NCBI GenBank assembly: GCA_030651285.1
Contig: JAUSCN010000013.1
Location: forward strand, 119,697 to 155,135
DNA: 35,439 nucleotides
Reading direction: 5' to 3'
Source: a bacterium
Lineage (GTDB): Bacteria > Patescibacteriota > Minisyncoccia > Phycocordibacterales > Phycocordibacteraceae
Below the pieces are notes generated by a model. It worked only from the letters and a program-made list of their open reading frames with translations. It had not been told where the DNA came from and searched no databases. The position numbers and the translations under genes were made by a program. Below are positions 5,851 to 35,439 of this stretch, piece by piece (position 1 is the stretch's first letter; each line of letters begins with the position of its first letter).

Positions 5851-5868
5851 ATCAGCAGATTTACTTTT
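5847..5868 (+). terminator. Weak terminator hairpin at the argS stop codon
   Basis: GTAAATC (5847-5853) pairs with GATTTAC (5858-5864), followed by TTTT. It overlaps the argS TAA. A second small hairpin (5873-5877 with 5886-5890) followed by a T-rich tract lies just beyond, so partial termination before ileS is likely. Confidence 0.55.
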
Positions 5869-5890
5869 GCGGCTGATCTTCTGCAATCAG

Positions 5891-5920
5891 TTTCCATTTT
5901 TGCTCTGTAAACGATACTAT
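5891..5920 (+). promoter_or_regulatory. Putative ileS promoter
   Basis: TTTCCA (5891-5896), 18-base spacer, TACTAT (5915-5920), nine bases before the chosen ileS ATG. The predicted leader is only about three bases. Confidence 0.55.
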
Positions 5921-5929
5921 GGGGAAGTT

Positions 5930-8900
5930 ATGGGAGCCCCGGAAAAGTCAGAGGCAGCCAAACGAGAGGAAGCGATCCTCGCGTTTTGGGAGCGCGAACG
6001 CATCTTCGAAAAATCGCTGCAGAAGAAATCCCCAAAGGGAGATTTCGTTTTTTACGAAGGTCCGCCAACAGCTAATGGCAAGCCCGGGATTCACCATCTT
6101 GAGAGTCGTGCGTTTAAAGATGCTATTCCGCGCTACAAGACGATGCGTGGCTATCGAGTTAATCGTCGTGCCGGCTGGGATACTCACGGTCTTCCGGTGG
6201 AACTGCAAGTCGAAAAGGAGTTAGGGTTTTCGGGGAAGAAGGATATCGAGGCATATGGCATCGCTGCTTTTAATAAAAAGTGTCGGGAGAGTGTCTTTAC
6301 CTATATCGATCTTTGGGAAAAGTTTACGAAGCGCATCGGCTACTGGGTCGATGAGTCGAAAGCATATTTCACATTCGATAGTGCCTATATGGAGACAGTG
6401 TGGCATCTTTTCGCACAGTCTGCGAAAGACGGGCGCCTCTATAAAGATTATAAAGTGTTGCCATGGTGTTCTCGTTGCGGTACCGCACTTTCATCACATG
6501 AGCTTGCACAGGGTTACACGGACGTCAAAGATATTACAATCACAGCGAAGTTCGAGCTGGTTGATGAGCCGGGAACATTTCTTCTTGCATGGACGACGAC
6601 GCCATGGACTCTTCCGGGGAATATCGCGCTCGCCGTTGGTGCTGATATCGAATACGGCATATACGAACAGGATGGGATACGCATTATTATCGCGAAGAAA
6701 CTTGCAGAAAAACAAACGGGTCTGTCCGAGGTTGTTACGACATTGTATGGTCGTGATTTGGTGGGAAAGAAATATAAGCCGCTCTATGATTTTGCAAAAG
6801 AAATTTCGGCTGAGGGCGAAAAAGCGAAATTCGAGAAAGCGTTTCAGGTACATGCCGCCGACTTTGTAACGACTGAAGATGGTACGGGTATCGTGCATAC
6901 GGCAGTCATGTATGGACAGGAGGATTTTGAGCTCGGAAATAAAATAGGGTTGCCGAAAGTGCATCTCGTAAATCCGGAAGGGAAGTACGTTTCAGGTACC
7001 GGTTTTCTTGCGGGCCGCTCAGTCGTTGATGAAGAGACGTCGATCGAAATACTGAAGGATCTGCAGGCGCGCGGGCTGCTTTTCAAAAAAGAATCATATA
7101 CGCACTCGTATCCGTTCTGCTGGCGCTGCAAGACTCGGCTCATCTACTACGCACGCGACTCGTGGTATATCCGCATGTCTGACCTGCGCGCGAAGCTCGT
7201 CGCGGAGAATAAGAATATTCATTGGGAGCCGGAGTACATTCGCGAGGGTCGCATGGGCGAATGGCTCGCGAATGCGAAAGACTGGGCGATAAGTCGCGAA
7301 CGGTACTGGGGCACCCCACTGCCAATATGGCAGAGCGAAGATGGTAAAGATCAAATGGTTGTCGGCTCAATTGATGAGCTTAAGAAATACACAAAGAAGT
7401 CTGGCAATACGTATCTCGTGATGCGACATGGTGAATCCGAGGGGAATGTCAAAGGGATTTTTGACTCTGATGGTATGTCCACGAACTCTCTTACGGAAAA
7501 AGGCCGCATACAGGCGCGCGATTCGGCAGTTCCCCTTAAAGGAAAAAAGATAAGGAGAGTCTATGCCTCTCCATTTTTGCGAACGCGACAGACGGCCGAG
7601 ATAGTCGCTGAAACGCTCGGATTTCCGAAAGAGGAGATTATTTATGACGACCGATTGCGCGAATTCAAGTTCGGCGAGTTCGATCAGAAGAGTAGTTTCA
7701 AAGAACTTCTCGCGTGGAAGGCAGCACACGATTTCGCCGATCCAGTCTCGGGCGGCGAAAGTTACCTTGACGCGAAACGACGCTTTGGTTCCTTCATTTA
7801 CGATCTCGAACGGGAGTACACAGACGAAACTATCATTATCGTCACACACGGTATCGCTTTCGAGTCTCTGTATACTGTCATCGCTGGAGCCGACAAGGTG
7901 GAGTCTGCAAAAATGCTCGATTCGATTATTAATTCGGTCAAGCAGGCCGAAGTGCGCACACTCGATTTCATCCCGTTGCCACACAATGAGGACTACGAAC
8001 TCGATCTGCATCGGCCGTATATCGACGATGTCGTTCTCGTTTCTGAAAAGGGAACAGAGTTGCACAGAGTAAAGGAAGTGATGGATGTTTGGTTTGATTC
8101 TGGCGCGATGCCGTTCGCGCAGGCCGCGAAAGAGCGGGGGAATGAGTCGATCGAATCTTTTTTAAAGAAGGTCGAATATCCGGCTAATTTTATCAGCGAA
8201 GCTATCGATCAGACACGCGGCTGGTTCTATACGCTTCTTGCTGTTGGGGCGATGTATGGTCGCGGGGCTGCTTTCAAAAATGCGATTTCACTCGGACATC
8301 TTCTCGATGCTGAAGGACAGAAGATGAGTAAGTCGAAAGGGAATGTTGTTGATCCATGGGTAGAGATGGAGAAGTGGGGTGTCGATGCACTCCGGTTTTG
8401 GATGTATAGCGTAACGCAGCCGGGTGATTCGAAGAATTATGACGAGAAGACCGTAAAAGAAGCGGCAAAAGCACTCTCATGGTTTGAGAATAGTGTGAAG
8501 TTTTACGATCTCTTTAAAGATCTTTCAAGAACAAAGAGTATCCCGACTGTAGTTGATCGTTGGATGAAAGTCCGAGTAGACAAAACAGTTTTGGCGGTTA
8601 CGAATGCCATGGATGAGTACCGTCCGTTTGAGGCGACTCGAGCGATTGCTGCACTCTTCGAGGATCTCTCACAGTGGTATGTGCGTCGAATACGCGAGCG
8701 TGCACGCAGTGGCGATGGAGCTGCGCTTGAGACATTGGAATACGTACTTCGAACATCATCACTTCTTCTTGCGCCATTTGCACCTTTTCTTGCCGAAGAA
8801 GCATATGCAAAAGTAAAACGATTCAATGATCCGGAAAGTGTACATCTCGCCGAATGGCCGGAAGTAAAGAAAACCTTCAGTTTCAGGAATTTATTCAATG

Positions 8901-9304
8901 GAGATAAAAATGCTGGACTTATCGTTGAGATGGCTCGCGTTCGTGTTCTTGCGTCGGAAGCGCTGCAATTGCGCCAGAAGGAGGGCATTAAAGTGCGCCA
9001 ACCGCTCGCGACACTTTTCGTACCGGATGCGCTCTCTCCAGAAATCGCGCAGATTCTCGCTGATGAAGTAAATGTGAAAAAGGTAATTACGGGAAAAGAA
9101 CTCTCGCTTGATACGGTACTTACGCCCGAGCTCATTAAGGAGGGTGATGAGCGAGATCTTGCGCGTGCGGTCGCTGAGGCGCGTAAGACCGAAGGATTTT
9201 CTCCCAAAGATAAGGCGCATGCGGAAATAACTCCGGAGGGGAAGCATTCTGTTACGCTCTCGACTGGTGCGACACGCTTCAATCTTGTCCGCGATGCGAC
9301 ATAA
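5930..9304 (+). CDS. ileS: Isoleucyl-tRNA synthetase (type 2) with inserted histidine-phosphatase domain
   Basis: Class I synthetase for tRNA-Ile, 1124 residues. It resembles the eukaryote-like IleRS type 2: [16 protein letters not shown] near the N-terminus, a CP1 editing domain with TTPWTLPGN, a [11 protein letters not shown] segment, the KMSKS loop K798-S802 (QKMSKSKGN), and a C-terminal anticodon-binding and tail region. The HIGH signature is replaced by G53-I-H-H56, the swapped GxHH form described for mupirocin hyper-resistant IleRS2. About 190 residues (roughly 491-683) are inserted between [10 protein letters not shown] and [16 protein letters not shown]. They form a histidine-phosphatase (phosphoglycerate-mutase-like) domain with [11 protein letters not shown] (R499-H500-G501) and VTHG (T639-H640-G641). 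An upstream in-frame ATG at 5867 would add 21 residues but lies before the -10 box, so 5930 is preferred. The stop overlaps recO. Confidence 0.96.
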
Positions 9305-9916: not shown

Positions 9917-11806
9917 ATGTTACAGCGCCCTGAAGATGACACTGGTTCGCTAGAGCGAGCTCGCGAGCATTTATACAAACCTGGAGTAGTGATGCACGAT
10001 ATGCGTGCGCCGATGAGTGCTTTTCATAAAGATGCGGTGCCTCACGAATGGAGAGAAGAGGAGGCTCCTAAACCTCGACCGCGAGTCACGGGTCGGCACG
10101 TCCGTTTCGCAGGAATATTTTTCGCGGCAGCATTTTTCTTCTTCCTCTTGTCGCTCGGTGGCGTCAGTTACTTCTTCTTCTATGGCGGAAATTCGGTCTC
10201 GGTAGAGCAGATTACTGTCGATATTCAGGGGCCCACGATGATCGCTGGCGGGGACACGGTACCTCTATCGCTCGCGATAACAAATAAGAATCCGACCGCG
10301 ATAGAGAATGCAATGCTCGAGATAACGTTTCCAAGTGGCACACGGAATGCGACCGATGTGTTAAATGCGTATCCTCGATATGTCGAAAATCTCGGCACGC
10401 TTCAGAGTGGTGCGACCGTGATGCGGTCGGTCAAGGCAGTGATGTTCGGTGGGGCGGGGCAAAACCTATCGCTTCCGGTTTCTCTTACGTACACCACGGG
10501 CGGTTCTGATGCTGTCTTTGTGAAGAAGTCGTCATATGCTCTCACGATCTCCTCGACGCCGCTTTCAATATCGGTTGATACGGCTGCCGAGACGGTGTCA
10601 GGGAAACCTCTGATTCTCACAGTTTCAGTCCGTTCAAATGCGACTGTGCCGCTCTCAGATGTCGTTCTTGTTGGAGCATTTCCTTTCGGATTTTCAGTCG
10701 ACTCTTCGTCGGTCTCTATGAGTAACTCGAGCTTCGCTCTTGGTACTTTGCAGCCTGGCGTGCTGAAGACTGTGAAGATCACCGGAACGCTTATGGGGCA
10801 GGATAAGGAGAAACGCGTCTTCCGCTTCACTGTGGGAACTGCGAAGTCCGCACAAGATCAGGCGCTCGCTGTTTCGTACATGAGTCAGGATGCGAATGTC
10901 ACGATCACAACTCCATTTATCGATACAAACATCGCAGTCAATGGAAATACGGTAGAGAATCCAATTGTTTCTCCTGGGAGTCGGCAGGACGTCACTGTGT
11001 CTTATAAAAACACACTTCCTACCAACGTAACGAATGCGACGGTTACGGTCACTATATCAGGCCCTGCGGTTGACTATGCAAGTATCACTTCACAAGATGG
11101 TTTCTATCGTTCCGCCGATCATTCTGTCGTTTTTAGTCAGGACACGGATCCCGATCTGGGGATGTTAGCTCCAGATGCTGTTGGGTCTGGCTCATTCAGT
11201 TTCTCAACGTTGCCAGTGGAGGGGCTTGGGCCAGCTCCGACGATCACATTTTCGATATCTGTGGCAGGGTCGCGAGACGGTCAGGAGAATGTGCCGGAGC
11301 AGGTAAGCTCTACAATACTGAAGACAGTAAAAGTTTCGACAGTAGCCGCTCTCACGGCATATTCGCTGCATAATTTTGGATCTATTAGCAACAGCGGCCC
11401 TATTCCTCCGCGCGCTAATCAAGTCACGACCTATTCTGTTGTGTGGAACGTTCAGAATAAAGGGAATGCTATTGCTGGTGGTTCGGTCACCTCAAAGCTG
11501 CCGAACTATGTGACGTATTCAGGGGCGACTGCTGGTTCGGGATCATTCACGTACGATTCAAAAACACATGTAGTGACCTGGAGTACTGGCGACCTTACGC
11601 AGAGCGCTACTGCGCAAGGAATGTTCAAGGTCTCGATTACACCTTCAACGTCACAGAAGGGAAGTTCTCCTGCGCTCACGGGCAGCATGTCATTTTCTGG
11701 GTATGACCGCTTTGCGGGAGTGTCGGTTTCAGCAACTGCAGATCCTGTGACAACCGAAACCACTCAGGAGCCCGGATATACTGCAGCGAGCGCGATTGTG
11801 CAGTAA
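9917..11806 (+). CDS. Single-pass membrane protein with extracellular Ig-like/DUF11-type repeats
   Basis: Function unknown. 629 residues: a charged cytoplasmic N-terminus of about 60 residues ending in RPRVTGRHVRFA, one long hydrophobic transmembrane segment (about 65-90, rich in Phe), then over 500 residues of Ser/Thr/Val-rich beta-sandwich sequence. Repeated patterns such as 'LGTLQSGATV', 'LGTLQPGVLKTVKI' and 'LGMLAPDAVGSGSF' mark successive domains of the DUF11/CARDB-like kind, and a final block contains KLPNYVTYSG and VTWSTGDL. There is no cysteine-rich or catalytic motif. It probably stands on the cell surface as a structural or adhesive protein. It sits alone between recO and glyS with its own -10 box, with no functional link to either. 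Confidence 0.8.
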   Translation: MLQRPEDDTGSLERAREHLYKPGVVMHDMRAPMSAFHKDAVPHEWREEEAPKPRPRVTGRHVRFAGIFFAAAFFFFLLSLGGVSYFFFYGGNSVSVEQITVDIQGPTMIAGGDTVPLSLAITNKNPTAIENAMLEITFPSGTRNATDVLNAYPRYVENLGTLQSGATVMRSVKAVMFGGAGQNLSLPVSLTYTTGGSDAVFVKKSSYALTISSTPLSISVDTAAETVSGKPLILTVSVRSNATVPLSDVVLVGAFPFGFSVDSSSVSMSNSSFALGTLQPGVLKTVKITGTLMGQDKEKRVFRFTVGTAKSAQDQALAVSYMSQDANVTITTPFIDTNIAVNGNTVENPIVSPGSRQDVTVSYKNTLPTNVTNATVTVTISGPAVDYASITSQDGFYRSADHSVVFSQDTDPDLGMLAPDAVGSGSFSFSTLPVEGLGPAPTITFSISVAGSRDGQENVPEQVSSTILKTVKVSTVAALTAYSLHNFGSISNSGPIPPRANQVTTYSVVWNVQNKGNAIAGGSVTSKLPNYVTYSGATAGSGSFTYDSKTHVVTWSTGDLTQSATAQGMFKVSITPSTSQKGSSPALTGSMSFSGYDRFAGVSVSATADPVTTETTQEPGYTAASAIVQ

Positions 11807-11852: not shown

Positions 11853-13178
11853 ATGTCTGATCAGACTCTGATGGAAAAGCTTATATCTCTCGCCAAGCGT
11901 CGCGGGTTCATATTCCCGGGTTCTGAGATCTATGGCGGGCTCGCGGGCACATTTGATTATGGTCCTCTCGGTGTCGTTCTTAAAGAGAATGTCGAGCGTC
12001 TCTGGCTGCAGATGTTCCGTGACGATCGCGATGATATGTATGGTGTCGATGCCGCTATTTTGATGAACTCGAAGATCTGGGAGGCGAGTGGGCACGTCTC
12101 TGGATTTTCAGATCCGCTTGTCGAGTGCGAAAAGTGCAAGCGACGTTTCCGTGCTGATCATCTCGATGGTTCTGGGAAGTGTCCTGAATGTGAGGGGAAG
12201 TTGGGGGACGTTCGGCAGTTCAACATGATGTTCAAGACGCATGCTGGTGCAAACGAAGATACATCAGCCGTCGTGTATCTGCGTCCAGAGACTGCCGGAG
12301 GTATCTTCGCGAACTTCAAGAACGTCGTGGACTCGATACATCCGAAGTTGCCCTTCGGTATTGCGCAGATAGGGAAGGCGTTCCGAAATGAGATTGCTCC
12401 GCGAGACTTTATATTTCGCCTTCGTGAATTGTCACAGATGGAGGTGGAATATTTCGTACATCCGTCGGAGTGGGAGCAGGCATTCGAAGGGTGGCGCAAG
12501 ATGATGCATCTTTTCGCGAAAGCGATCGGGATACCGCAGGACTCAGTGCATGAGCTCGAGGTTGCTGCTGAAGATCGTGCCCACTACAGCAAGCGCACTA
12601 TCGATTTTGAATTCGACTATCCGTTCGGTCGAAAAGAGCTTTGGGGTCTCGCATACCGCACTGATTTTGACCTCTCTGCTCACGAAAAGCATTCCAATGT
12701 CGAGCTCAAGTATCTCGACGAGACGGCTGGAGTGAAATTCACTCCGCATGTAATCGAGCCATCGCTCGGTGTTGATCGTACGGTGCTTGCAATTCTTTCA
12801 AGCGCGTACCGTGAAGACTCTATGGGTGGGGAGGTACGCACGTATCTCGCTCTCGCACCGAAGATCGCGCCGGTAAAAGCGATGGTGTCGCCGCTTTTGA
12901 AGAACAAGCCTGAGCTTGTTGCGAAAGCTCGCGAAGTACGCGCAGAACTCAAAAAGGTGCATCCGGCAATCGCGTGGGATGACAACGGAAACATCGGTAA
13001 GCGCTATCGCCGTCAGGACGAGATCGGTACGCCGTTCTGTGTCACGATCGACTTCGATACTCTTGGCGAAACGCCTGAGCTCAAAGACACAGTGACTTTG
13101 CGTCATCGTGATACAGGGGAGCAGGAGCGCCTCACTATGCCAGAAGTCGCCGAGCGCATCCGCTCAGTCATCCAATAG
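11853..13178 (+). CDS. glyS: Glycyl-tRNA synthetase, single-chain type
   Basis: Class II synthetase of the dimeric (alpha2, eukaryote-like) GlyRS family, 441 residues. Visible parts are the N-terminal LAKRRGFIFPGSEIYGG with FDYGPLG, a four-cysteine cluster (C92, C95, C110, C113) that could bind zinc, the class II motif 2 region FRNEIAPRDFIFRLRE, a motif 3 region with SLGVDRTVLAIL, and a C-terminal anticodon-binding domain ending at TMPEVAERIRSVI. The ORF extends 19 codons upstream to 11796, overlapping the preceding gene. The ATG at 11853 is preferred because the conserved family start (M..L..LAKRRGF) begins there. No Shine-Dalgarno. Confidence 0.96.
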   Translation: MSDQTLMEKLISLAKRRGFIFPGSEIYGGLAGTFDYGPLGVVLKENVERLWLQMFRDDRDDMYGVDAAILMNSKIWEASGHVSGFSDPLVECEKCKRRFRADHLDGSGKCPECEGKLGDVRQFNMMFKTHAGANEDTSAVVYLRPETAGGIFANFKNVVDSIHPKLPFGIAQIGKAFRNEIAPRDFIFRLRELSQMEVEYFVHPSEWEQAFEGWRKMMHLFAKAIGIPQDSVHELEVAAEDRAHYSKRTIDFEFDYPFGRKELWGLAYRTDFDLSAHEKHSNVELKYLDETAGVKFTPHVIEPSLGVDRTVLAILSSAYREDSMGGEVRTYLALAPKIAPVKAMVSPLLKNKPELVAKAREVRAELKKVHPAIAWDDNGNIGKRYRRQDEIGTPFCVTIDFDTLGETPELKDTVTLRHRDTGEQERLTMPEVAERIRSVIQ

Positions 13179-23049: not shown

Positions 23050-23082
23050 TTGCACGGCATTTTCACGGACGTATACTGTCCG
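23050..23082 (+). promoter_or_regulatory. Promoter of the HTH gene with overlapping inverted repeat
   Basis: TTGCAC (23050-23055), 16-base spacer, TATACT (23072-23077). The -10 is bracketed by the inverted repeat CGGAC (23066-23070) and GTCCG (23078-23082), the position expected for a repressor operator. Autoregulation by the downstream gene is an inference. Confidence 0.6.
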
Positions 23083-23091
23083 ATACGACAT

Positions 23092-23886
23092 ATGAGACAC
23101 GTGGTATCAGATATAAGACAAGGATCTGAAATTAGGAATGCTCATGCAAAGAATAAGGACACGCATACAGAAGACTTTGTCCTAGAAAAGAACATATTTA
23201 ATAACATTTTCGAAAAGGACATACGTAGGGTATTTATATACAAAAAGGCAGAAAGGCTTGCAAAAGCGATACACCTCATAGCCCCGGCTTTCGCTGGCTC
23301 TGTGTCTTTAAGGAATCGTATGGACACGATTGCTATCAGTCTTGTGGATACTGCTATACAGTCATCTACAACTGCTCGCACCGCGCTTTCGCACGAACTC
23401 CTCACGCTCTCCTCGATCCTTTCCATGGCACGCACCGGCGGGATTCTTTCACCGATGAATGCGGAGATCATATCTCACGAAGCTCACGTTTTATTACAAG
23501 AAGTTGCGGCTTACGAAGAGCCACGTCTTCTTCTCGATGAGGTTTTGACACTTTCTGAAATAGCGAAGAGCGCATCAAAAAGAAAGAGTGTTCAAAACTC
23601 GAATGTCGATAGTGTGTCTGTACCAAAACGAATGGCACATGACGCGGGTACATACAATAAAGGACATATAAAAGACATAGGCGAGCAAGGTTCCCACATA
23701 AAAGACAGGAGGGAAGCTGTAATGTCCGTTATAAAAAATAAAGGTAGCGCGAGCATAAAGGACATATCGACTCTCATAAGAGATGTCTCAGAAAAAACAA
23801 TTCAACGCGAACTTTCTTCTCTCGTTGATGGGGGGTTGATAATCAAAAGAGGAGAGCGGCGTTGGAGTACCTATTCGCTGACTTAG
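23092..23886 (+). CDS. Winged-helix (DeoR-like) DNA-binding protein
   Basis: 264 residues. The C-terminal ~60 residues form a winged HTH of DeoR-like type: RREAVMSVIKNKGSASIKD, then ISTLIRDVSEKTIQRELSSL, VDGGLIIKRGERRWSTYSL. The N-terminal two thirds is helical and unassigned, with a Lys-rich disordered stretch (about residues 165-200) containing repeated HIKD/IKD units. Start at 23092 (ATG after the -10); a TTG at 23050 lies within the -35 box and is rejected. Codon use is unlike the neighbours, with many ATA (Ile) and AAA codons and fewer GCG/CGC. It sits between ftsK (divergent) and the long leader of the surface-protein gene, so it may regulate one or both; that is not shown by the sequence. 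Confidence 0.78.
   Translation: MRHVVSDIRQGSEIRNAHAKNKDTHTEDFVLEKNIFNNIFEKDIRRVFIYKKAERLAKAIHLIAPAFAGSVSLRNRMDTIAISLVDTAIQSSTTARTALSHELLTLSSILSMARTGGILSPMNAEIISHEAHVLLQEVAAYEEPRLLLDEVLTLSEIAKSASKRKSVQNSNVDSVSVPKRMAHDAGTYNKGHIKDIGEQGSHIKDRREAVMSVIKNKGSASIKDISTLIRDVSEKTIQRELSSLVDGGLIIKRGERRWSTYSLT
23657..23767 (+). repeat. Pair of identical 13-base repeats within the HTH gene
   Basis: ATAAAGGACATAT occurs at 23657-23669 and 23755-23767, 98 bases apart, in two different reading frames (encoding N-K-G-H-I and I-K-D-I). The core GGACATA also occurs at 23217-23223 and, outside the gene, at 24222-24228. Confidence 0.75.
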
Positions 23887-24368
23887 TCTGATTGTCTTTT
23901 ATTTTCGTCCCATACAATATTAAGGTCTTAATCCTGACCTCCAATTACGATCAGCAATGAGGGCCTTATGGTTTTCGATATCTTGGACGGTTTTGACTCA
24001 GTGCCCATATTTTGCTAATATTCTCGTTGTGGCAGTGACTAGGGCATAGATACCTGTATAAGAGGCCGGAAACGGCCTATTTACTATATCTATTCCCTTG
24101 CTTATCCACACGCTGGTAAATAAGAAACATTAGTTTCCACTATATACTGGTTGCAGTCCTCTCGGGCTCTATTTTCCCGTCGAGGCGTACTTTGATAACT
24201 GAATAGTCCGTTCAAACCGACGGACATAAACCCTTACCAACTAACCCATGGCGTACTGGTCGATACCGTACGCTGTGGGGTAGTGTGAAAGTGCGTGTGC
24301 ACACTAGTCAGTAATTAGTGCAAATCAACTTGATTATCACGTGCTCCCTAAATTCTTAACAATTGTTT
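23887..24368 (+). other. Non-coding, hairpin-rich region upstream of the surface-protein gene
   Basis: No credible gene is seen in these 480 bases. A candidate promoter is GTGACT (24035-24040), 16-base spacer, TATAAG (24057-24062), which would give a leader of about 300 bases. Downstream of it are stem-loops: AGGCCG-GAAA-CGGCCT (24063-24078); 24158-24185; GTCCGT/ACGGAC (24206-24225); a long stem of about 15 bp, including two G-U pairs and one bulge, at 24245-24279; the palindrome GTGTGCACAC (24295-24304); and AACAATTGTT (24358-24367) directly before the ATG. No Shine-Dalgarno is visible. A further -10-like TACAAT lies at 23913-23918. Confidence 0.6.
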
Positions 24369-27300
24369 ATGACAACAGTAACTACAAAAGCGATCGCGAA
24401 GGTCGCAGCAGTGGCGACTGGACTCGCGATGGCGACATCAATGCTCTCGCTTGCGCCTATGGCGCACGCAGCGGCGCTGACGAACTCGCAGGTTCAGGCG
24501 ATCCTCTCGCTCCTCTCTTCGTTCGGTGCTGATGCATCGACGATCGCAAACGTGAACGCTTCTCTTACAGGAAGCGCGCCGGTAGCGACGACTCCGTCGA
24601 CTTCGGCTTGCTCGTTCACGAGAGATCTTACAATCGGTTCGACTGGCGCAGACGTAACCTGCCTTCAGAATACTCTTAAGGCGAATGGCTTTATGTCAGC
24701 AAACGCGACTGGCTACTTCGGTGGCCTCACGAAGGCTGGCGTCGTCGCATGGCAGCAGTCAGCAGGGGTAATTCCTGCAGCTGGCTACTTCGGTGCTAAG
24801 AGTCGCGCAGCATTCGGTGGTGTTTCAACAACTCCGACTACTCCAACAACTCCTACCACACCGACGATTCCGGTAACGGGTAATGGCCTCAAGGTCATGC
24901 TCTCGCCAGATTCTCCGAATAATATTGCCCTCGTTCAGGGTCAGGCAGCAGGCGAGCTTGCGAAATTCACTTTCGCAAACCCGACCGCAAGCCCGATTAA
25001 CGTAACTTCGGCTTCGTTCAAGCGCATTGGTGTATCCAATGACTCGACGATGACGAATGTATACCTCTACATGGGTGCAAGACGCCTCACTGACTCTGCT
25101 GGTATCAGCAGCTCAGCGTTCAACTTCAACGATCCAACAGGACTCTTTACTGTTCCAGCAGGTGGAACAGTAACGATATCGGTGCGTGCAGATATTGCTG
25201 CCTCAACTTCGGGTCAGCAGATCGGCGCACAGCTCGTTTCGGTTGCTTCGAACGGTACTCTTGACTCATCGGTAGTGTTCCCAATCAACAGCTACACGCA
25301 GACAGTTTCTGCTGCAACGCTCTCGACAGTGGACTTCAACACTACGACGCTCCCATCGTCTACAGCGGTTGATCCTCAGGCTGACTACACAGTCTGGCAG
25401 AACACCACGACGATTGGTACGCGCGCAGTAACACTTCGCACATTTGCCATCAAGAACATCGGCTCCATCCAGAGTGGCGACGTAATTAATTTCCGTCTCT
25501 ACGTAGACGGCGTTATGGTCGGCTCGGCTGTTCCGGCGCTTGATGCAAACAACATGGTGACCTTCGATCTTTCCGCAGCTCCAGTTCGTCTTGAGACGGG
25601 TGGTCGCGTGATCAAAGTTGTTGCTGATGTTGTGAAGGGCGCTTCGCGCACCTTCGCTCTGTCGCTCCGCTACGCTGCAGATGCATTGTTCTACGACACC
25701 GATCTTAATCAGCCAGTCCTTGCGACAGCAAACAGCTCGACTTTCTCGGCTCGTACTGCTACAACCGCAACGATCAACTCGATTTCGACCTCGGCTCCGT
25801 CTATAACTCGCGCTGCTGATTCGCCTACGGCGAACGTCGCACGTGGAGCATCGAACGTGAAGTGGGCAACATTCAAAATTGTTGCTAACGGTGAAGATGT
25901 AAAGGTTGACAATCTCAACGTTACAGCTAACACGTCGTCGTCAGGTTCAGGTCTCGACAACGGTAAAGTGTTCGTCAATGGTGTCCAGGTGGGCTCCACG
26001 AAGGACATTGCTGAATTCGGTGGTACGACCACAAACTTCACATTCGGCTCATCGTTCATCGCAAGGGTTGGTCAGACGGCAACTATTGACATCTACGCAG
26101 ATGCAAAGACGTCTTCGGCTGGCGACCTTACTGCGAACGAGACGGTGCAGATCTATATTGGAGTTGGTTCATCCAACGGCCAAGGCCAGGTCTCGCTCTC
26201 TTCGGTTAACATTCCGGCTTCCGAACTTACTGGAAACTCCCTTACGGTTGCTTCGGGCTCACTCGCAGCAACAAAGGCTTCCGGTTACGGAGATCAGACT
26301 GCTATCGCAGGTGCGCAGAACATGAAGATTGGTTCGTTTACGCTCTCCACGGGCTCAACTGAGGGTGTAAACGTAAATACGATTGAAATCGGTTTTGCTT
26401 CGGCAGTCTCATCGACTTTGAGCGACCTTGTAATAAAGGACAGCTCGACTGGTACGATGTTTGGCTCTTCGAAGGCAACGATCGGTACAACAAACTCGTT
26501 CTCTGGTAATGTCACTCTTGCAGCTTCCGGTACAAAGACGTTCGATGTCTATGCGAACATTAAGACCGGCGCTAATCTTGGTGCTATTCCAGCGACGACG
26601 GTTACCACCAGCACGACGGGTACGGGTAGCAATACCGGTACTTCTGTCGCAGTTGGCACGGCACCAACACTCCAGACTATTACTGTCGGTTCTGCAACCC
26701 TCACGGTGACACAGAATGCGGGTAATACTCCGGATAGCACCAGTGCAATCGCAGGTGCTACAACTGCAATTAAGGTTGGCTCCTTCCGCTTCACGACCCA
26801 GTACTCTTCGTACACAGTCGACAAGGTAGCGGTTAAGGTTCCTGCTAACGTTGCAACGTCTGTTTCGAGTGTGACGGTCAAGTACCTCAATAGTTCAGGT
26901 ACGGAAGTTTCAGAGTCGGCAGCTCTTACGCTCTCGACTGGTGCTCAGACACATGCGACGGCAACCTTCACAGGTATGACGTTCTATGTTCCGTCCGACA
27001 CAAACAGAAACTTCGATGTGTATGTCACGGTTCCGACGGTCGCTTCTGGCGCAACGTCTGGTCGTGGTATCACAGTACTGCTCGATGCAAACGAGGGCTT
27101 CAATGCCACCGACTCATCGGGTACGGCTGACACGACTCTTGCAGGATCAGATATTGCTTCGAGCGATACATCTGGCAAGGGTACGATGTACGTCCGTAAG
27201 TCACTCGTAACTCTCGCAGCTCCATCTGCATCGAGCGCAACGCTCGCGGCAGGTACGGACCAAGTTCTCGGTAAGTTCACTGTCGCAGCTGATGCTGCAG

Positions 27301-27836
27301 GTGATATCGACTGGGGTCAGGTTGTCTTCACGGTAACCAAGACTTCGGGCGTTACTATCGGTGCAACTTCGACAGTCGCTCTCTGGGATGTAACGGGTGC
27401 TTCGACTCAGGTCGCAGGTACCTTTGCAACCACGACGGGTGCACTGCTCGGTGGTCTTGAGTCGTTCGGTTCTGGCGGTGCAACGGCAACTGGCGGTTCG
27501 CTCCACTTCCGTCCGACGACAGTGCAGACTGTCTCGGCTGGCAGCACACGAACCTACGAACTCCGTGGCACTGTTGCAAGTCTTGCAGCTTCGGCAAACA
27601 ACAGCGTGAACGTATCGATCGCTGCTGTGACGACCTCGGCTTCGACAAACAACATCTTCTCGACGACCGCAGGAACACTCGGTACTTCGGGCAACTCGTC
27701 ATTCGTCTGGTCTGACTGGTCTGATACGACTGATCATGCCGGAAGCGCAACGGGTGCCTCAACGGGTGACTGGATCAATGATTACCTTGTGAAGACCCTT
27801 CCTCTCACGGTTGGTTCTCGCTCGGTAAATCTCTAA
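24369..27836 (+). CDS. S-layer-like surface protein with peptidoglycan-binding domain
   Basis: 1155 residues. A signal peptide ends near APMAHAA (about residue 36). A PGRP-like peptidoglycan-binding domain (about 80-150) shows IGSTGADVTCLQNTLKANGF, GYFGGLTKAGVVAWQQ and GYFGAKSRAAF. A Thr-Pro linker built from TPTTP units follows, then at least six tandem Ig-like repeats of about 130-170 residues with recurring openings such as AKFTFANPTAS, KWATFKIVANG, MKIGSFTLSTG, IKVGSFRFTTQ and LGKFTVAADAAG. The protein is very rich in Ser, Thr, Ala and Val with a single Cys in the binding domain. Start: ATG 24369; an in-frame TTG six bases earlier is possible. It probably coats the cell and is anchored through peptidoglycan; S-layer identity is inferred. 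It is the largest surface gene here, with a strong terminator. Confidence 0.87.
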   Translation: MTTVTTKAIAKVAAVATGLAMATSMLSLAPMAHAAALTNSQVQAILSLLSSFGADASTIANVNASLTGSAPVATTPSTSACSFTRDLTIGSTGADVTCLQNTLKANGFMSANATGYFGGLTKAGVVAWQQSAGVIPAAGYFGAKSRAAFGGVSTTPTTPTTPTTPTIPVTGNGLKVMLSPDSPNNIALVQGQAAGELAKFTFANPTASPINVTSASFKRIGVSNDSTMTNVYLYMGARRLTDSAGISSSAFNFNDPTGLFTVPAGGTVTISVRADIAASTSGQQIGAQLVSVASNGTLDSSVVFPINSYTQTVSAATLSTVDFNTTTLPSSTAVDPQADYTVWQNTTTIGTRAVTLRTFAIKNIGSIQSGDVINFRLYVDGVMVGSAVPALDANNMVTFDLSAAPVRLETGGRVIKVVADVVKGASRTFALSLRYAADALFYDTDLNQPVLATANSSTFSARTATTATINSISTSAPSITRAADSPTANVARGASNVKWATFKIVANGEDVKVDNLNVTANTSSSGSGLDNGKVFVNGVQVGSTKDIAEFGGTTTNFTFGSSFIARVGQTATIDIYADAKTSSAGDLTANETVQIYIGVGSSNGQGQVSLSSVNIPASELTGNSLTVASGSLAATKASGYGDQTAIAGAQNMKIGSFTLSTGSTEGVNVNTIEIGFASAVSSTLSDLVIKDSSTGTMFGSSKATIGTTNSFSGNVTLAASGTKTFDVYANIKTGANLGAIPATTVTTSTTGTGSNTGTSVAVGTAPTLQTITVGSATLTVTQNAGNTPDSTSAIAGATTAIKVGSFRFTTQYSSYTVDKVAVKVPANVATSVSSVTVKYLNSSGTEVSESAALTLSTGAQTHATATFTGMTFYVPSDTNRNFDVYVTVPTVASGATSGRGITVLLDANEGFNATDSSGTADTTLAGSDIASSDTSGKGTMYVRKSLVTLAAPSASSATLAAGTDQVLGKFTVAADAAGDIDWGQVVFTVTKTSGVTIGATSTVALWDVTGASTQVAGTFATTTGALLGGLESFGSGGATATGGSLHFRPTTVQTVSAGSTRTYELRGTVASLAASANNSVNVSIAAVTTSASTNNIFSTTAGTLGTSGNSSFVWSDWSDTTDHAGSATGASTGDWINDYLVKTLPLTVGSRSVNL

Positions 27837-27893
27837 TCCTCAGGTTCTCCGCATAGCGGAAAATCTCTAGCTGTGGAATATTAGCCCAGCAGC

Positions 27894-27930
27894 AAAAGCC
27901 CCCTCATAAAGAGGGGGCTTTTGTGTTTTT
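27894..27930 (+). terminator. Strong terminator after the surface-protein gene
   Basis: A perfect 12-bp stem AAAAGCCCCCTC (27894-27905) with GAGGGGGCTTTT (27911-27922), then TGTTTTT. A smaller hairpin TCCGC-ATA-GCGGA (27848-27860) lies just after the stop codon. Confidence 0.93.
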
Positions 27931-27931
27931 A

Positions 27932-27940
27932 TGCTATTCT
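27932..27940 (+). promoter_or_regulatory. Extended -10 promoter of the TPR-protein gene
   Basis: TGC-TATTCT (-10 at 27935-27940), eight bases before the ATG at 27949. It sits immediately after the terminator T-run. Confidence 0.52.
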
Positions 27941-27948
27941 AGAATGCA

Positions 27949-28488
27949 ATGAAACATTGGATGCTATATAGCTTCGTGGCACTTCTTGTTACTGGGTCAG
28001 TCGGTAGTTTGTGGTATGCGAATCGTGAGCCTGTTTCGTACGATTTTGTTCTTGCGTCTGAAGATACGATCGCTTCTTGGGAATTCAAAGGTTTGTATAA
28101 AGATAATGCTGAACTTGTGACTCGCGCACAGAACGAGATTGGTCGTCTTGAGGTCCTTCTTGAGAATGAGAAGGATGATTTTCCAGAATATGAACTCTAT
28201 GTAAGTATTGCAAATCAGTACGATCTTCTTGGTAACGGGGAGAAAGAATATCAATATTTGAAGTATGCTCTTGCTCTCGACAGTCAGAACACGGGTCTCG
28301 CTTGGAATAATCTCGGAGATCTTCTTGAAAAACTTGGAGCGTATCATTCGGCACGTACTGCCTTTGAGAAGGGTATTGCTGCTCAACCATTGCCGCAGTA
28401 TCGCCAAGTCTATTTTGAGTTCTTAATGAAACATTATCCGGGAGATCCTGCCATTGCAATAGAGAAGGCCGTACTAGATAACAAGTAA
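27949..28488 (+). CDS. Membrane-anchored tetratricopeptide-repeat protein
   Basis: 179 residues. An N-terminal membrane anchor (about 5-24, YSFVALLVTGSVGSLWYA) is followed by an extracytoplasmic helical domain with TPR-type units: YELYVSIANQYDLLGNGEKEYQYLKYALALDS, then GLAWNNLGDLLEKLGAYHSARTAFEKGIAAQP and a final helix pair. TPR modules mediate protein-protein contacts. It ends five bases before the O-antigen-ligase-like gene, so the two are co-transcribed, and it may be an accessory subunit of that enzyme. This is inferred from position and from the fact that the partner also has TPR-like repeats. Confidence 0.82.
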   Translation: MKHWMLYSFVALLVTGSVGSLWYANREPVSYDFVLASEDTIASWEFKGLYKDNAELVTRAQNEIGRLEVLLENEKDDFPEYELYVSIANQYDLLGNGEKEYQYLKYALALDSQNTGLAWNNLGDLLEKLGAYHSARTAFEKGIAAQPLPQYRQVYFEFLMKHYPGDPAIAIEKAVLDNK

Positions 28489-28493
28489 CGAAC

Positions 28494-30719
28494 ATGATCT
28501 CCACGGTGTATAGGTGGATACTTCTTGCTCCAACTCTCTTGCCGCTCTTTTACGTCGAGGGGGTCATGTATCCCTTGATTGCGCCGAAAATGTTCGCATT
28601 GCGAACATTGGCCCTAATTGCGCTCGCTCTTTTTGTGTATCTTACTGTATCTAGGCGACCATTCTTCTGGCAGCGTCTCTATCACATCGAAACATGGATC
28701 CCGGCAGGTCTATTGTTTGTTGCGTACGTCACTTCTTTTTTTGGTATCGATTTTTACCACAGTTTCTGGTCCACCTTTGAGCGTGGAGATGGTCTGCTAA
28801 CTTTCACGCTGTGTGTTGCGTATTTCTATCTCATTTTACTTTCGGCAGACGAAAAATTTGTTGATCGTTTTGTTCGCATTAATGCATGGATCGGATCGCT
28901 CACGGCTATCTATGTGATTTTGCAGTGGTTTTTTATGACAAGTGGTCTTGATGTATCGCTTTTCGTGCCGGCAAGTGGTCGAGTCGGCGGAACGATGGGA
29001 AATGCTGCATTTCTTGCCGCATATCTTGGCATGACCCTCCTTATCACTGGGGCGGCGCGACACCTCTATTCTGGGGTGTGGCGCACCTACCTATATATTG
29101 GGGCCGCGTTCCAGGTGCTTGCAATAATTCTGGCAGCAACACGTGGCACACTGCTCGCAATCCTTGTTGTTGCCGGACTTGCGCTCGTGCACGTGTCCTT
29201 GAAGGGCAGTGGTGAAAAACGAATATATGCGCGCCGAGGTCTCGCGGTGTTCTTTGCTTTTATTGCGCTGTTTGTGATATTCCGAGGGTTTCTCTCGAAT
29301 GTACCGTTTGAACCTATCAGACGTCTCACTTCTATCTCATTGACTGATGCAACTGTCTCAAGTCGTCTGTTTGTTTGGTCGAATGTTCTCCGGGAGACGA
29401 ATGGCCGGCTTTTCAGGGGGTATGGTGCCGAGCATGTCGACATTGTCTTCAATCGTGTATACGACCCGAGTGTCCTAACGGAGGAGTGGTTTGACCGATC
29501 ACACAACGCGTTTCTCGATTATCTGGTGCAGTTCGGTGTTTTTGGTCTTCTCCTATATCTAGCGCTGATTGGTGCGATTATAAACATCGGATGGCGACTC
29601 TTTGTTCGTGGCGACTCGTATGGTCCGTGGGTACTTGGTTTAGCGGGGGTCTATGCCGTTCAGAACTTCTTCGTATTTGATACGGTGGTTACGCTCTGGT
29701 TGCTGCTCGCTATGTTTGCCATTGCTCTTGTGCGTGAGCGAGTAGGTGAGAGTAGTGTCGCCGTCTTCAAACCTACCATTGTTTTGTGGGTGTTCATCGC
29801 CGGTCTTGTTCTTCTTATTATTCCAGTCTCGATTCGACCCTTTTTAGCGAACCTAAGGGCATTCGAAGCGTATCGGTATCAGATCGTGGATGTTGCCCGT
29901 GCGGCGGCAGCATTTAGGAATGGTTTAAATCTTTCCACATATGCGGATCTCGAGTACGGCTACAACGCATATTTCATGTATACCGATAATCAGTTTCCGC
30001 GGCTTTCAGGGAATGACCTTGTCGTGGCTTACAATACGACGAAGTCTATTCTTGAACAGACATATGCCCGATATCCATATGATGCGCGTACAGCACTGTA
30101 TTATGCGCAGGTACTCTCGGAAGTGCCTTCTGGCATATTGCCTGATCGTGAAGCACTTTCCGGAGCGATTGCCCGCACAATCGAGCTTTCCCCTAAGCGC
30201 GTACAGTCCTGGCTCATACTGGTGAACGTGGCTATAGACGACGCCAACAAATATCCACCCGGTTCTATAGGACGCAAGGCGGGATATGTCGCCGCTGGAG
30301 ATATTCTGAAGCAGTACATTACGATGGTTCCAAATTTATCTGAGCCGCATTTTGTGCTTGCACAGCTAAAGCTTGCTGTGGACGATCGTGTTGAGGCCGC
30401 TGCTGAGGCTGCTCTCGGAAAGGAACTATATAGGAGTAATGTGAAGACGGCTCGTCGTGCAGCGGCGTATTATGGAAGCCTTGAAAAATGGGAAGATGCT
30501 AAATTTTTCTTGGGAGAGGTGGTAGGGGGCGATCCTCATGATTACGTTTCATTGTTCGATTATGCAAAGTTGACGTACGTACTCGGAGATCCAGGCAAGG
30601 CAAGTCAGATTGTGAATCGACTACGCACTGAACAGCCGGCTATTCTCGAGACCGATCAGAGTTTCCTCTCTGCAATTACCGCATATGAGGCTCGTGCAGG
30701 GGGTGCACAAACGCGATAA
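28494..30719 (+). CDS. O-antigen ligase / PglL-like membrane glycosyltransferase with C-terminal TPR-like repeats
   Basis: 741 residues. The first ~450 residues hold about 12 hydrophobic segments. The Wzy_C (O-antigen ligase/polymerase) core is seen in GRVGGTMGNAAFLAAYL, LAIILAATRGTLLA, SRLFVWSNVLRETNGRLFRGYGAEH and the periplasmic-loop motif DRSHNAFLDYLVQFGVFGLLLYL. The last ~270 residues are helical repeats of TPR type. Proteins of this superfamily join lipid-linked glycans to lipid A, to other glycans, or (PglL/PilO-type) to Ser/Thr of secreted proteins. Its place next to a Ser/Thr-rich surface protein favours protein O-glycosylation, but substrate choice cannot be read from sequence. No Shine-Dalgarno. 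Confidence 0.85.
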   Translation: MISTVYRWILLAPTLLPLFYVEGVMYPLIAPKMFALRTLALIALALFVYLTVSRRPFFWQRLYHIETWIPAGLLFVAYVTSFFGIDFYHSFWSTFERGDGLLTFTLCVAYFYLILLSADEKFVDRFVRINAWIGSLTAIYVILQWFFMTSGLDVSLFVPASGRVGGTMGNAAFLAAYLGMTLLITGAARHLYSGVWRTYLYIGAAFQVLAIILAATRGTLLAILVVAGLALVHVSLKGSGEKRIYARRGLAVFFAFIALFVIFRGFLSNVPFEPIRRLTSISLTDATVSSRLFVWSNVLRETNGRLFRGYGAEHVDIVFNRVYDPSVLTEEWFDRSHNAFLDYLVQFGVFGLLLYLALIGAIINIGWRLFVRGDSYGPWVLGLAGVYAVQNFFVFDTVVTLWLLLAMFAIALVRERVGESSVAVFKPTIVLWVFIAGLVLLIIPVSIRPFLANLRAFEAYRYQIVDVARAAAAFRNGLNLSTYADLEYGYNAYFMYTDNQFPRLSGNDLVVAYNTTKSILEQTYARYPYDARTALYYAQVLSEVPSGILPDREALSGAIARTIELSPKRVQSWLILVNVAIDDANKYPPGSIGRKAGYVAAGDILKQYITMVPNLSEPHFVLAQLKLAVDDRVEAAAEAALGKELYRSNVKTARRAAAYYGSLEKWEDAKFFLGEVVGGDPHDYVSLFDYAKLTYVLGDPGKASQIVNRLRTEQPAILETDQSFLSAITAYEARAGGAQTR

Positions 30720-30722
30720 TAT
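30717..30722 (+). promoter_or_regulatory. -10-like box before the 51-residue membrane protein
   Basis: TAATAT ends seven bases before the ATG at 30730 and overlaps the stop codon of the previous gene. There is no clear -35. Confidence 0.35.
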
Positions 30723-30729
30723 AGAGCTA

Positions 30730-30885
30730 ATGATTCCGAACTCCAAAGGTACCTCAAATGCAAAAAAAGCATCTGGCCGCAGTGCCCTCCCATTCTTCAT
30801 TGAGTTTGTAAAGTTTTCAGTCGGTTTTGCGGCGATTATTGCCGTGGGTCTATTTACTATGCATATCGCAAGCGCGGCGATCTAA
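30730..30885 (+). CDS. Small single-pass membrane protein
   Basis: 51 residues, unknown. A polar, Lys/Ser-rich N-terminus (about 18 residues) is followed by one hydrophobic helix (about 20-48: FFIEFVKFSVGFAAIIAVGLFTMHIA). The frame is open upstream to 30685, but that start lies inside the preceding gene; the ATG at 30730 follows a -10-like box. It could also be read through from the glycosyltransferase gene, 10 bases upstream. It may be an accessory membrane peptide of that locus; no motif allows a function. Confidence 0.6.
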   Translation: MIPNSKGTSNAKKASGRSALPFFIEFVKFSVGFAAIIAVGLFTMHIASAAI

Positions 30886-31065: not shown

Positions 31066-31560
31066 ATGGCAATATCAAAAGACAAAAAGCGCGAGATAGT
31101 CGCGAAGCTCACAGCTGCTTTTAAGGAGGCTTCCTCGATTGCGTTTGTCGGCTTCACGAAGTTCACGGTTGCAGATGCTTCCCGCGTACGCGGAGAGCTC
31201 TCGAAAGCTGGTGTGCAGTATTTCGTAGCAAAGAAGACGCTTATTCTCCGCGCTCTCAAAGAGGGCGGATATCAGGGAGAAGTGCCAGCATTGCCTGGTG
31301 AGGTTGCAGTTGCATGGACTACAGAAGATTCGACTGCGCCGGCTCGTGGCGTGCATGAACACAGCAAGAAGTTGAAAGGTATTCTTTCGCTTCTCGGCGG
31401 TGTGTTCGAGGGATCATTCCTTGATGCGACAAAGATGACAGAGATTGCGACGATACCGCCAATGATCGTCTTGCGTGGCATGTTCGTAAATGTCATCAAC
31501 AGCCCGATTCAGGGATTTGTCACTGCTCTCGATAAAATTCGCGAGAAGAAGGCAGCATAA
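31066..31560 (+). CDS. rplJ: 50S ribosomal protein L10
   Basis: Base of the L7/L12 stalk on the 50S subunit, 164 residues. N-terminal rRNA-binding domain: MAISKDKKREIVAKLTAAF, FVGFTKFTVADASRVRGELSKAGVQYFVAKKTLILRAL. C-terminal helix (PIQGFVTALDKIREKKAA) that carries the L12 dimers. Slightly shorter than in E. coli but within family range. Preceded by a canonical L10 leader and followed by rplL. Confidence 0.97.
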   Translation: MAISKDKKREIVAKLTAAFKEASSIAFVGFTKFTVADASRVRGELSKAGVQYFVAKKTLILRALKEGGYQGEVPALPGEVAVAWTTEDSTAPARGVHEHSKKLKGILSLLGGVFEGSFLDATKMTEIATIPPMIVLRGMFVNVINSPIQGFVTALDKIREKKAA

Positions 31561-31587
31561 GTTTATTAACTGATTAATAAAACAGGT

Positions 31588-31992
31588 ATGGAAGAAACGA
31601 ATGCATCTGCTCCGGTAGAAGTACCGAGCAAGTTCAAGAAGCTCGTTGAGGAAGTTGAGGCGATGACCGTCGTTGAGCTCTCTGAGCTCGTGAAGGTGCT
31701 CGAGAAGAAGTTTGGTGTGAGCGCGGCTGCAGTAGCGGTTGCGGGTCCTGCAGCAGCAGGCGCACCGGCTGAGGAAGCAAAGTCGACAGTTGACGTTGAG
31801 CTCACCGAGGCTGGCGCAAGCAAGATTGGTGTTATCAAGGTAGTGAAGGAGGCTCTCGCTCTTGGACTCAAGGAGGCTAAGGATCTCGTCGATGGCGCAC
31901 CATCGATGCTGAAGCAGGGCATGAAGAAGGAAGACGCTGCTGAGCTTGCAAAGAAGCTTACGGACGCAGGGGCAAAAGTCACCCTCAAATAA
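31588..31992 (+). CDS. rplL: 50S ribosomal protein L7/L12
   Basis: Stalk protein that recruits translation factors, 134 residues. N-terminal dimerisation/L10-binding helices ([27 protein letters not shown]), an Ala/Gly-rich hinge, and the globular C-terminal domain ([41 protein letters not shown]). It has an N-terminal extension of about 13 residues over the usual start. Usually present in several copies per ribosome; translated from the rplJ mRNA. Confidence 0.97.

Positions 31993-34467: not shown

Positions 34468-35439
<972 letters not shown>

Follow-up and report, generated by a model that had tools for sequence, protein, structure and literature searches.

A putative O-oligosaccharyltransferase dedicated to a Ser/Thr-rich surface protein in a reduced Patescibacteria genome

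Pilin-dedicated O-oligosaccharyltransferases (O-OTases) such as TfpO/PilO and PglS-ComP are encoded next to the gene for their acceptor, and the glycan is made elsewhere. WsaB of Geobacillus stearothermophilus and WsfB of Paenibacillus alvei are Wzy_C enzymes proposed as S-layer O-OTases; WsfB has a C-terminal tetratricopeptide repeat (TPR) region, and a 168-aa TPR open reading frame (ORF), wsaA, lies directly upstream of wsaB (PMC2943079). PglS is described as having a WaaL-type fold in which the arginines are conserved and a histidine lies in the active site; its C-terminal domain is extracytoplasmic (PMC12800693). Here we analyze a locus within 35,439 nucleotides of DNA (the window, C11:119697-155135) from a Patescibacteria genome of 855,539 bases that is 96.7% complete; the nearest named loci carry the label Candidatus Kaiserbacteria. 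The locus encodes a surface protein (SLP), a TPR protein, a Wzy_C enzyme (WZY-A), and a small membrane protein. A preliminary description of this DNA had proposed that the set could O-glycosylate the surface protein after export, as a compact three-component system. All four are in the ORF list of the window, at or very near the positions that it reported:

24369..27836, + strand: SLP, the probable acceptor, a secreted, peptidoglycan (PG)-binding, Ser/Thr-rich, all-beta surface protein
24642..24770, + strand: PG_binding_1 domain of SLP (residues 94-136, numbered from TTG 24363)
24822..24878, + strand: disordered Ser/Thr/Pro linker of SLP, a candidate O-glycosylation stretch
27949..28488, + strand: membrane-anchored TPR protein, a probable enzyme partner
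28494..30719, + strand: WZY-A, a Wzy_C (WaaL-fold) membrane enzyme with a TPR tail, the probable O-OTase for SLP
29502..29504, + strand: His337 codon of WZY-A, the putative catalytic base, in a WFDRSHN motif
29835..30710, + strand: TPR superhelix of WZY-A (residues 448-739; model and fold search)
30733..30885, + strand: 50-aa protein with a single transmembrane segment (likely start ATG 30733)

The layout is close to that of wsaA and wsaB in that a 179-aa TPR ORF precedes WZY-A, and WZY-A resembles WsfB in having a TPR tail. Unlike in either S-layer system, the acceptor gene lies within the locus, the enzyme combines a TPR tail with a separate TPR protein, no glycan-synthesis genes are nearby, and the host has a reduced genome. 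Because WZY-A lies outside a glycan locus and its O-OTase activity is only predicted, we do not claim membership in the WsfB/WsaB family. WZY-A has the same arginine/histidine arrangement as PglS. It differs from the pilin-dedicated enzymes in its TPR tail, in the nature of the acceptor, which is a large PG-binding surface protein, and in that no extra Pfam domains of the PglL/PilO type were detected. The function proposed here would nonetheless match that of the O-OTases of Gram-positive S-layers and of pilins: WZY-A is probably, though well short of certainly, an enzyme of the O-OTase/ligase type whose dedicated acceptor is the neighboring SLP. The grounds for this putative assignment are linkage, co-occurrence, the WaaL fold and its residues, and recruitment of related enzymes to the same site.

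WZY-A (about 43 to 58% identity) is found in about 43 of 92 genomes of the genus, at a single site wherever contigs allow. WZY-A and a long SLP occur together in 36 of these genomes, the enzyme alone in 7 (mostly on short contigs), SLP alone in 6, and neither in 43 (Fisher p 2e-12). Outside the genus, WZY-A was present in 7 of 242 sampled genomes of the order (33 to 47% identity), and all 7 carry an SLP of at least 43% identity. An SLP of at least 42% identity occurs in only 8 of the 242, namely, the 7 enzyme carriers and one more, and the gene order of the seven carriers is identical as far as their contigs extend. For 56 named WZY-A loci, the sequence 5' of the enzyme gene is long enough to be scored: at least 52 have SLP there, and 53 have the TPR gene. 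Among the named carriers are Kaiserbacteria, Taylorbacteria, Wolfebacteria, Giovannonibacteria, Yonathbacteria, and Nomurabacteria. The co-occurrence of these genes across candidate phyla radiation genomes, which the preliminary description had offered as a check, is thus positive.

WZY-A matches the Pfam families Wzy_C (E 5.5e-16; 59.1 bits against a curated cut-off of 31.7) and TPR_19 (E 4.1e-7), and no NCBIfam model was found for it. An AlphaFold model built from 39 homologues had a predicted local distance difference test (pLDDT) score of 93.3 and a predicted template modeling (pTM) score of 0.90. Residues 1-417 of this model aligned with the WaaL O-antigen ligase 7tpg (Z 20.0, 366 residues, root mean square deviation 4.2), a match standing well above the unrelated rows of the fold search. 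A single-sequence PDB search with WZY-A gave no match, and a profile was needed. In the profile alignment, Arg217, Arg291, and His337 of WZY-A correspond to Arg191, Arg265, and His313 of 7tpg (sequence index), so that WZY-A shares with WaaL the fold, two arginines, and the HN histidine, which is His337. All three residues are invariant in 39 of 39 sequences. In contrast to WaaL, WZY-A has a TPR tail and adjoins a surface-protein gene, and LpxC was not found in its host genome, whereas four control genomes were positive. To the extent that a single marker can show it, a lipid A ligase is therefore excluded.

SLP is 1,155 aa long. Its ORF is listed from TTG 24363, but ATG 24369, which the preliminary description had used, is the start found in orthologues. 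The N terminus is signal-like, and Ser plus Thr account for 28.1% of residues in the mature protein, compared to 7 to 13% in most other window genes (exceptions, 16.5% and 23.1%). The PG_binding_1 domain (E 3.6e-7) is present in 24 of 25 orthologues, and the linker STTPTTPTTPTTPT, with pLDDT below 50 at residues 154-172, is Ser/Thr-rich in nearly all orthologues. Beyond the linker lie ~970 residues of beta structure, and Ig-like surface proteins, e.g., PrgB, are among its best matches to solved structures; because the whole-chain pTM is 0.38, only the domain type is trusted in this model. No recognized S-layer, SLH, or CWB2-type domain was found in SLP, and PG_binding_1 is the only domain that recurs in the 25 orthologues. 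"S-layer" is therefore used here by analogy.

The TPR protein consists of an N-terminal hydrophobic segment followed by one TPR (TPR_8, E 2.4e-5), in agreement with its first description as a membrane TPR protein, and many of its orthologues have Thr/Ser-rich tethers. In relatives, its ORF and that of the enzyme mostly overlap by 4 bases. Evolutionary distances of the TPR protein and the enzyme are strongly correlated (partial r of 0.81 in one of five comparisons and 0.88 to 0.90 in the other four), and the partial r for SLP and the enzyme is about 0.5 with the neighboring DeoR-type gene (DEOR) as background (21 loci) and 0.23 to 0.67 with other backgrounds (8 to 11 loci). Since the TPR protein tracks the enzyme more closely than SLP does, "enzyme partner" describes it better than the pure substrate presenter suggested earlier. 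The pairing is not strict: the TPR protein occurs without the enzyme in L075, L076, L080, and, as far as the contig end, L077, and the enzyme occurs without the TPR protein in L115, L121, and L154. An apparent 998-aa TPR-enzyme fusion in L113 was rejected as an artifact, as it contains X runs (assembly gaps) and out-of-frame residues past the gap. L075, from a genome without the enzyme, has an IS200-like transposase gene amid SLP and TPR (12151-12867).

The genes occupy a conserved site with the order RecA-FtsK, DeoR-type helix-turn-helix (HTH) gene, SLP, TPR, WZY-A, small protein, rplJ-rplL, HTH gene, and mechanosensitive-channel-like gene. In the window, its conserved borders are as follows:

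23050..23886, + strand: DEOR, a DeoR-type HTH regulator-like gene (HTH_DeoR E 5e-4; start uncertain)
31066..31992, + strand: rplJ and rplL, the conserved right border (named from sequence)

DEOR is the left neighbor of the SLP gene both in genus loci and order-wide. In distant SLP loci of the order, SLP lies beside FtsK in 18 of 18 cases and beside the DeoR-type gene as well in nearly all. The content between SLP and rplJ varies, and the site itself is conserved order-wide. The gene for the 50-aa protein is real: a profile of the protein finds it in the corresponding position in about 40 loci. Its core, LPFFxEFVKFSxGF, is conserved 5' of rplJ even where the Wzy_C enzyme is lacking, and the gene is retained at the enzyme-free sites L080, L081, and L088. 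The small protein is therefore a resident of the site and not a component of a strict glycosylation system. It was also considered as a SecE candidate; this was rejected, as SecE is located elsewhere (G000:C11:117151).

Several observations weigh against a dedicated O-OTase. The co-occurrence counts and the Fisher p value ignore shared ancestry. In G011, G044, and G071, where the context is intact, a long SLP and the TPR gene are kept but WZY-A is absent (G018, G019, and G039 were not assessable for the enzyme, as their contigs end), and 17 of the 18 distant SLP loci have no adjacent Wzy_C gene, the exception being L209. The Ser/Thr linker of SLP is equally rich at loci without the enzyme, which led us to reject it as a marker for enzyme presence. 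Known O- and N-glycosylation motifs are not enriched in SLP; D[ST][AILVMT] was observed 5 times against 7.0 expected. The domains PglL_A and Wzy_C_2, typical of PglL/PilO enzymes, were not found in WZY-A, which gave only Wzy_C and TPR_19 at E values up to 0.01. Finally, polymerases and ligases share this fold. Retention of a long SLP without WZY-A and the lack of an adjacent Wzy_C gene beside most SLP relatives across the order indicate that SLP does not depend on the enzyme. The SLP site long predates the enzyme, which would thus be an optional decorator. The genes do not form one strict system, given that the small protein, and in many cases the TPR protein too, is kept where the enzyme is missing.

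Wzy_C enzymes of other lineages are found at the same site. Five genus genomes without WZY-A (G006, G010, G024, G078, and G087) have a Wzy_C enzyme of about 660 aa (lineage C), encoded ~100 bases 3' of a related, shorter PG-binding surface protein; in G010, the enzyme is truncated by the contig end and lies about 550 bases behind the surface protein. In G308, of another family, the gene 112 bases 3' of SLP encodes a Wzy_C enzyme of 435 aa that has no TPR (L209:5557-6864, minus strand). Lineages A and C formed separate clades in trees (100/100), and L209 fell outside both, with its placement unsure because of its long branch. The paralogue WZY-B (L072), from the same genome as the window, resembles WZY-A in its Wzy_C domain and TPR tail and is 22 to 28% identical to it. 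However, it occurs in nearly all genus genomes, adjoins Wzx, an FkbM methyltransferase, murB, and secA, and forms a further separate clade with its relatives. Those relatives that were inspected adjoin Wzx or ABC exporters, glycosyltransferases, and sugar-nucleotide enzymes, whereas no flippase or glycosyltransferase was seen at the examined WZY-A loci. A grouping of WZY-A with polymerases beside glycan genes, named early on as a finding that would count against glycosylation, is thus not what the trees show. That enzymes of one class came repeatedly to one and the same acceptor gene is difficult to account for without a functional role. We tentatively propose, as an idea with nearly even chances, a fixed "coat site" in Paceibacteria: a leader-bearing gene for a wall-bound coat protein to which unrelated Wzy_C O-OTases have been recruited at least three times as dedicated decorators, with glycans borrowed from a general pathway.

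C13 of the host genome carries a gene for a Bac_transf initiating enzyme, and C28 and C14 carry genes for two Wzx-like flippases, which makes the supply of an undecaprenyl-pyrophosphate (Und-PP) glycan plausible but unlinked. The locus is accordingly not self-contained, as its glycan must come from unlinked loci. In the mechanism that we envisage, SLP would be exported through Sec, and the glycan would be assembled on Und-PP by unlinked genes (the Bac_transf initiator and glycosyltransferases) and flipped outward by Wzx. WZY-A would then move the glycan en bloc onto Ser/Thr hydroxyls of SLP, with Arg217 and Arg291 holding the pyrophosphate and His337 as the putative base. The acceptor may be held by the extracytoplasmic TPR surfaces of WZY-A and its partner TPR protein, and the decorated SLP would finally reside on peptidoglycan.

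The alternative that survives best is that the enzyme polymerizes or ligates a secondary cell wall glycan and that SLP docks on or beside this glycan via its N-terminal wall-binding domain, the gene linkage reflecting co-assembly. Polymerases are found among Wzy_C enzymes, SLP does carry a wall-binding domain, and the host genome has a polysaccharide pyruvyl transferase in addition to Wzx; pyruvylated wall polymers are S-layer anchors in Gram-positives. We nevertheless regard this explanation as unlikely. The examined WZY-A loci showed no glycosyltransferase or flippase at the site, the paralogue that does sit in a glycan locus belongs to a different clade, PG_binding_1 would bind peptidoglycan itself, and the enzyme varies with the SLP type. 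Less probable still is a general O-OTase serving many exported proteins, such as the Ser/Thr-rich tethers of TPR proteins or pilins, with its position by SLP providing shared expression only. Such an enzyme would have further PG-binding surface proteins in these genomes and the tethers of many TPR orthologues as potential substrates, but nothing would tie it to a single acceptor gene, and neither the close, repeated co-occurrence with long SLP across families nor the recruitment of other Wzy_C lineages to the same acceptor site would be expected. A purely historical linkage, in which a Wzy_C gene was inserted by chance into a stable location and persisted with no functional relation to SLP, would suit a site that is conserved order-wide with variable content from SLP to rplJ, but it is very improbable given three separate Wzy_C lineages in the same position, strong co-occurrence outside the genus, and TPR-enzyme co-evolution. 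A dedicated O-OTase thus accounts best for linkage, co-occurrence, fold, residues, and repeated recruitment. In sum, of the preliminary description, O-glycosylation of SLP is supported but not proven, the enzyme is Wzy_C with a TPR tail but gave no PglL-specific Pfam domains, the surface protein is Ser/Thr-rich but not recognizably S-layer, and the TPR protein is linked to the enzyme and is better described as its partner than as a pure presenter.

The SLP gene itself has a distinctive transcript architecture:

24185..24297, + strand: structured leader RNA 5' of the SLP coding region, folded into two hairpins (covariance model)
27892..27924, + strand: intrinsic terminator between the SLP gene and the TPR-enzyme unit (14-bp stem)

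The terminator is strong and a comparable one follows SLP in 25 of 35 loci, so that SLP is a separate transcription unit. The leader ends 72 nt before the SLP ATG in the window and ~50 to 140 nt before it in inspected loci, where it precedes long and short SLPs whether or not the enzyme is present. Its conservation far exceeds that of the SLP protein. The covariance model R1 scored 123 bits in the window and found a single copy in 74 of the 92 genus genomes. In an alignment of 38 matches, which include one antisense-strand match to the window's own copy, 19 of 29 pairs changed on both sides and 96.9% of cells pair. The 131 two-sided-change cells compare to 34.9 in shuffles (0 of 500 as high) and 13 to 30 in slid controls, although this alignment was fitted to the structure, which biases the counts in its favor. 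Within the variable hairpin, RNAalifold on an unfitted MAFFT alignment of 21 sequences found six pairs with two-sided changes, in 4 to 13 of the sequences. An Rfam search with the leader gave no match. Across 247 order genomes, R1 had only two matches outside the genus (E 5e-4 and 8e-4), 81 and 136 nt 5' of a secreted-protein gene and after a regulator-like ORF; one of the two secreted proteins has a peptidoglycan-binding-like N terminus. Their position upstream of secreted proteins provides unbiased confirmation of the leader. Leader-core matches at 2041 and 3196 in L082 lie within coding sequence and were dismissed as chance, and a regex search outside the genus was set aside as uninformative (control, 398 of 400).

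The leader RNA is new and previously undescribed, may form a class of its own, and is a solid by-product of this analysis; mRNA stability, translation control, and sensing are candidate roles. The insulated gene and long leader are only suggestive of an abundant lattice protein. Farther 5' (window 23993-24022, 24063-24078, and near 24103), a conserved promoter-like TTTGACT-17-TAnTAT is followed ~40 bases on by a small terminator-like hairpin and, past that and still 5' of the leader, by a DnaA-box-like TTATCCACA and a TATATACT element. There may be a short transcript or attenuator ahead of the SLP promoter.

Elsewhere in the window, a class I (Ile-type) tRNA synthetase gene (5867-9304) has a histidine-phosphatase domain (His_Phos_1, E 1e-32, residues 517-677) lying between synthetase segments. 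A 629-aa ORF with 23% Ser plus Thr and no Pfam match (9917-11806) is flanked by recO-like and tRNA-synthetase genes. The 5' part of a 23S rRNA gene (34477-35439) closes both the window and the contig, with a few genes separating it from the surface-protein site; no 16S match was found within the window, and PADLOC reported no defense family.

The papers searched include the S-layer O-OTase precedents, but none was found among them that describes glycosylation of an S-layer protein in Parcubacteria. Molecular knowledge of the surfaces with which Patescibacteria meet their hosts is very scarce. A conserved candidate coat protein, a probable dedicated O-glycosylation enzyme with its partner, and a leader RNA can now be named with defined sequences. 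If the proposed function is correct, S-layer-type O-glycosylation would extend into reduced genomes, and WZY-A would represent a new Wzy_C enzyme family with a natural folded acceptor.

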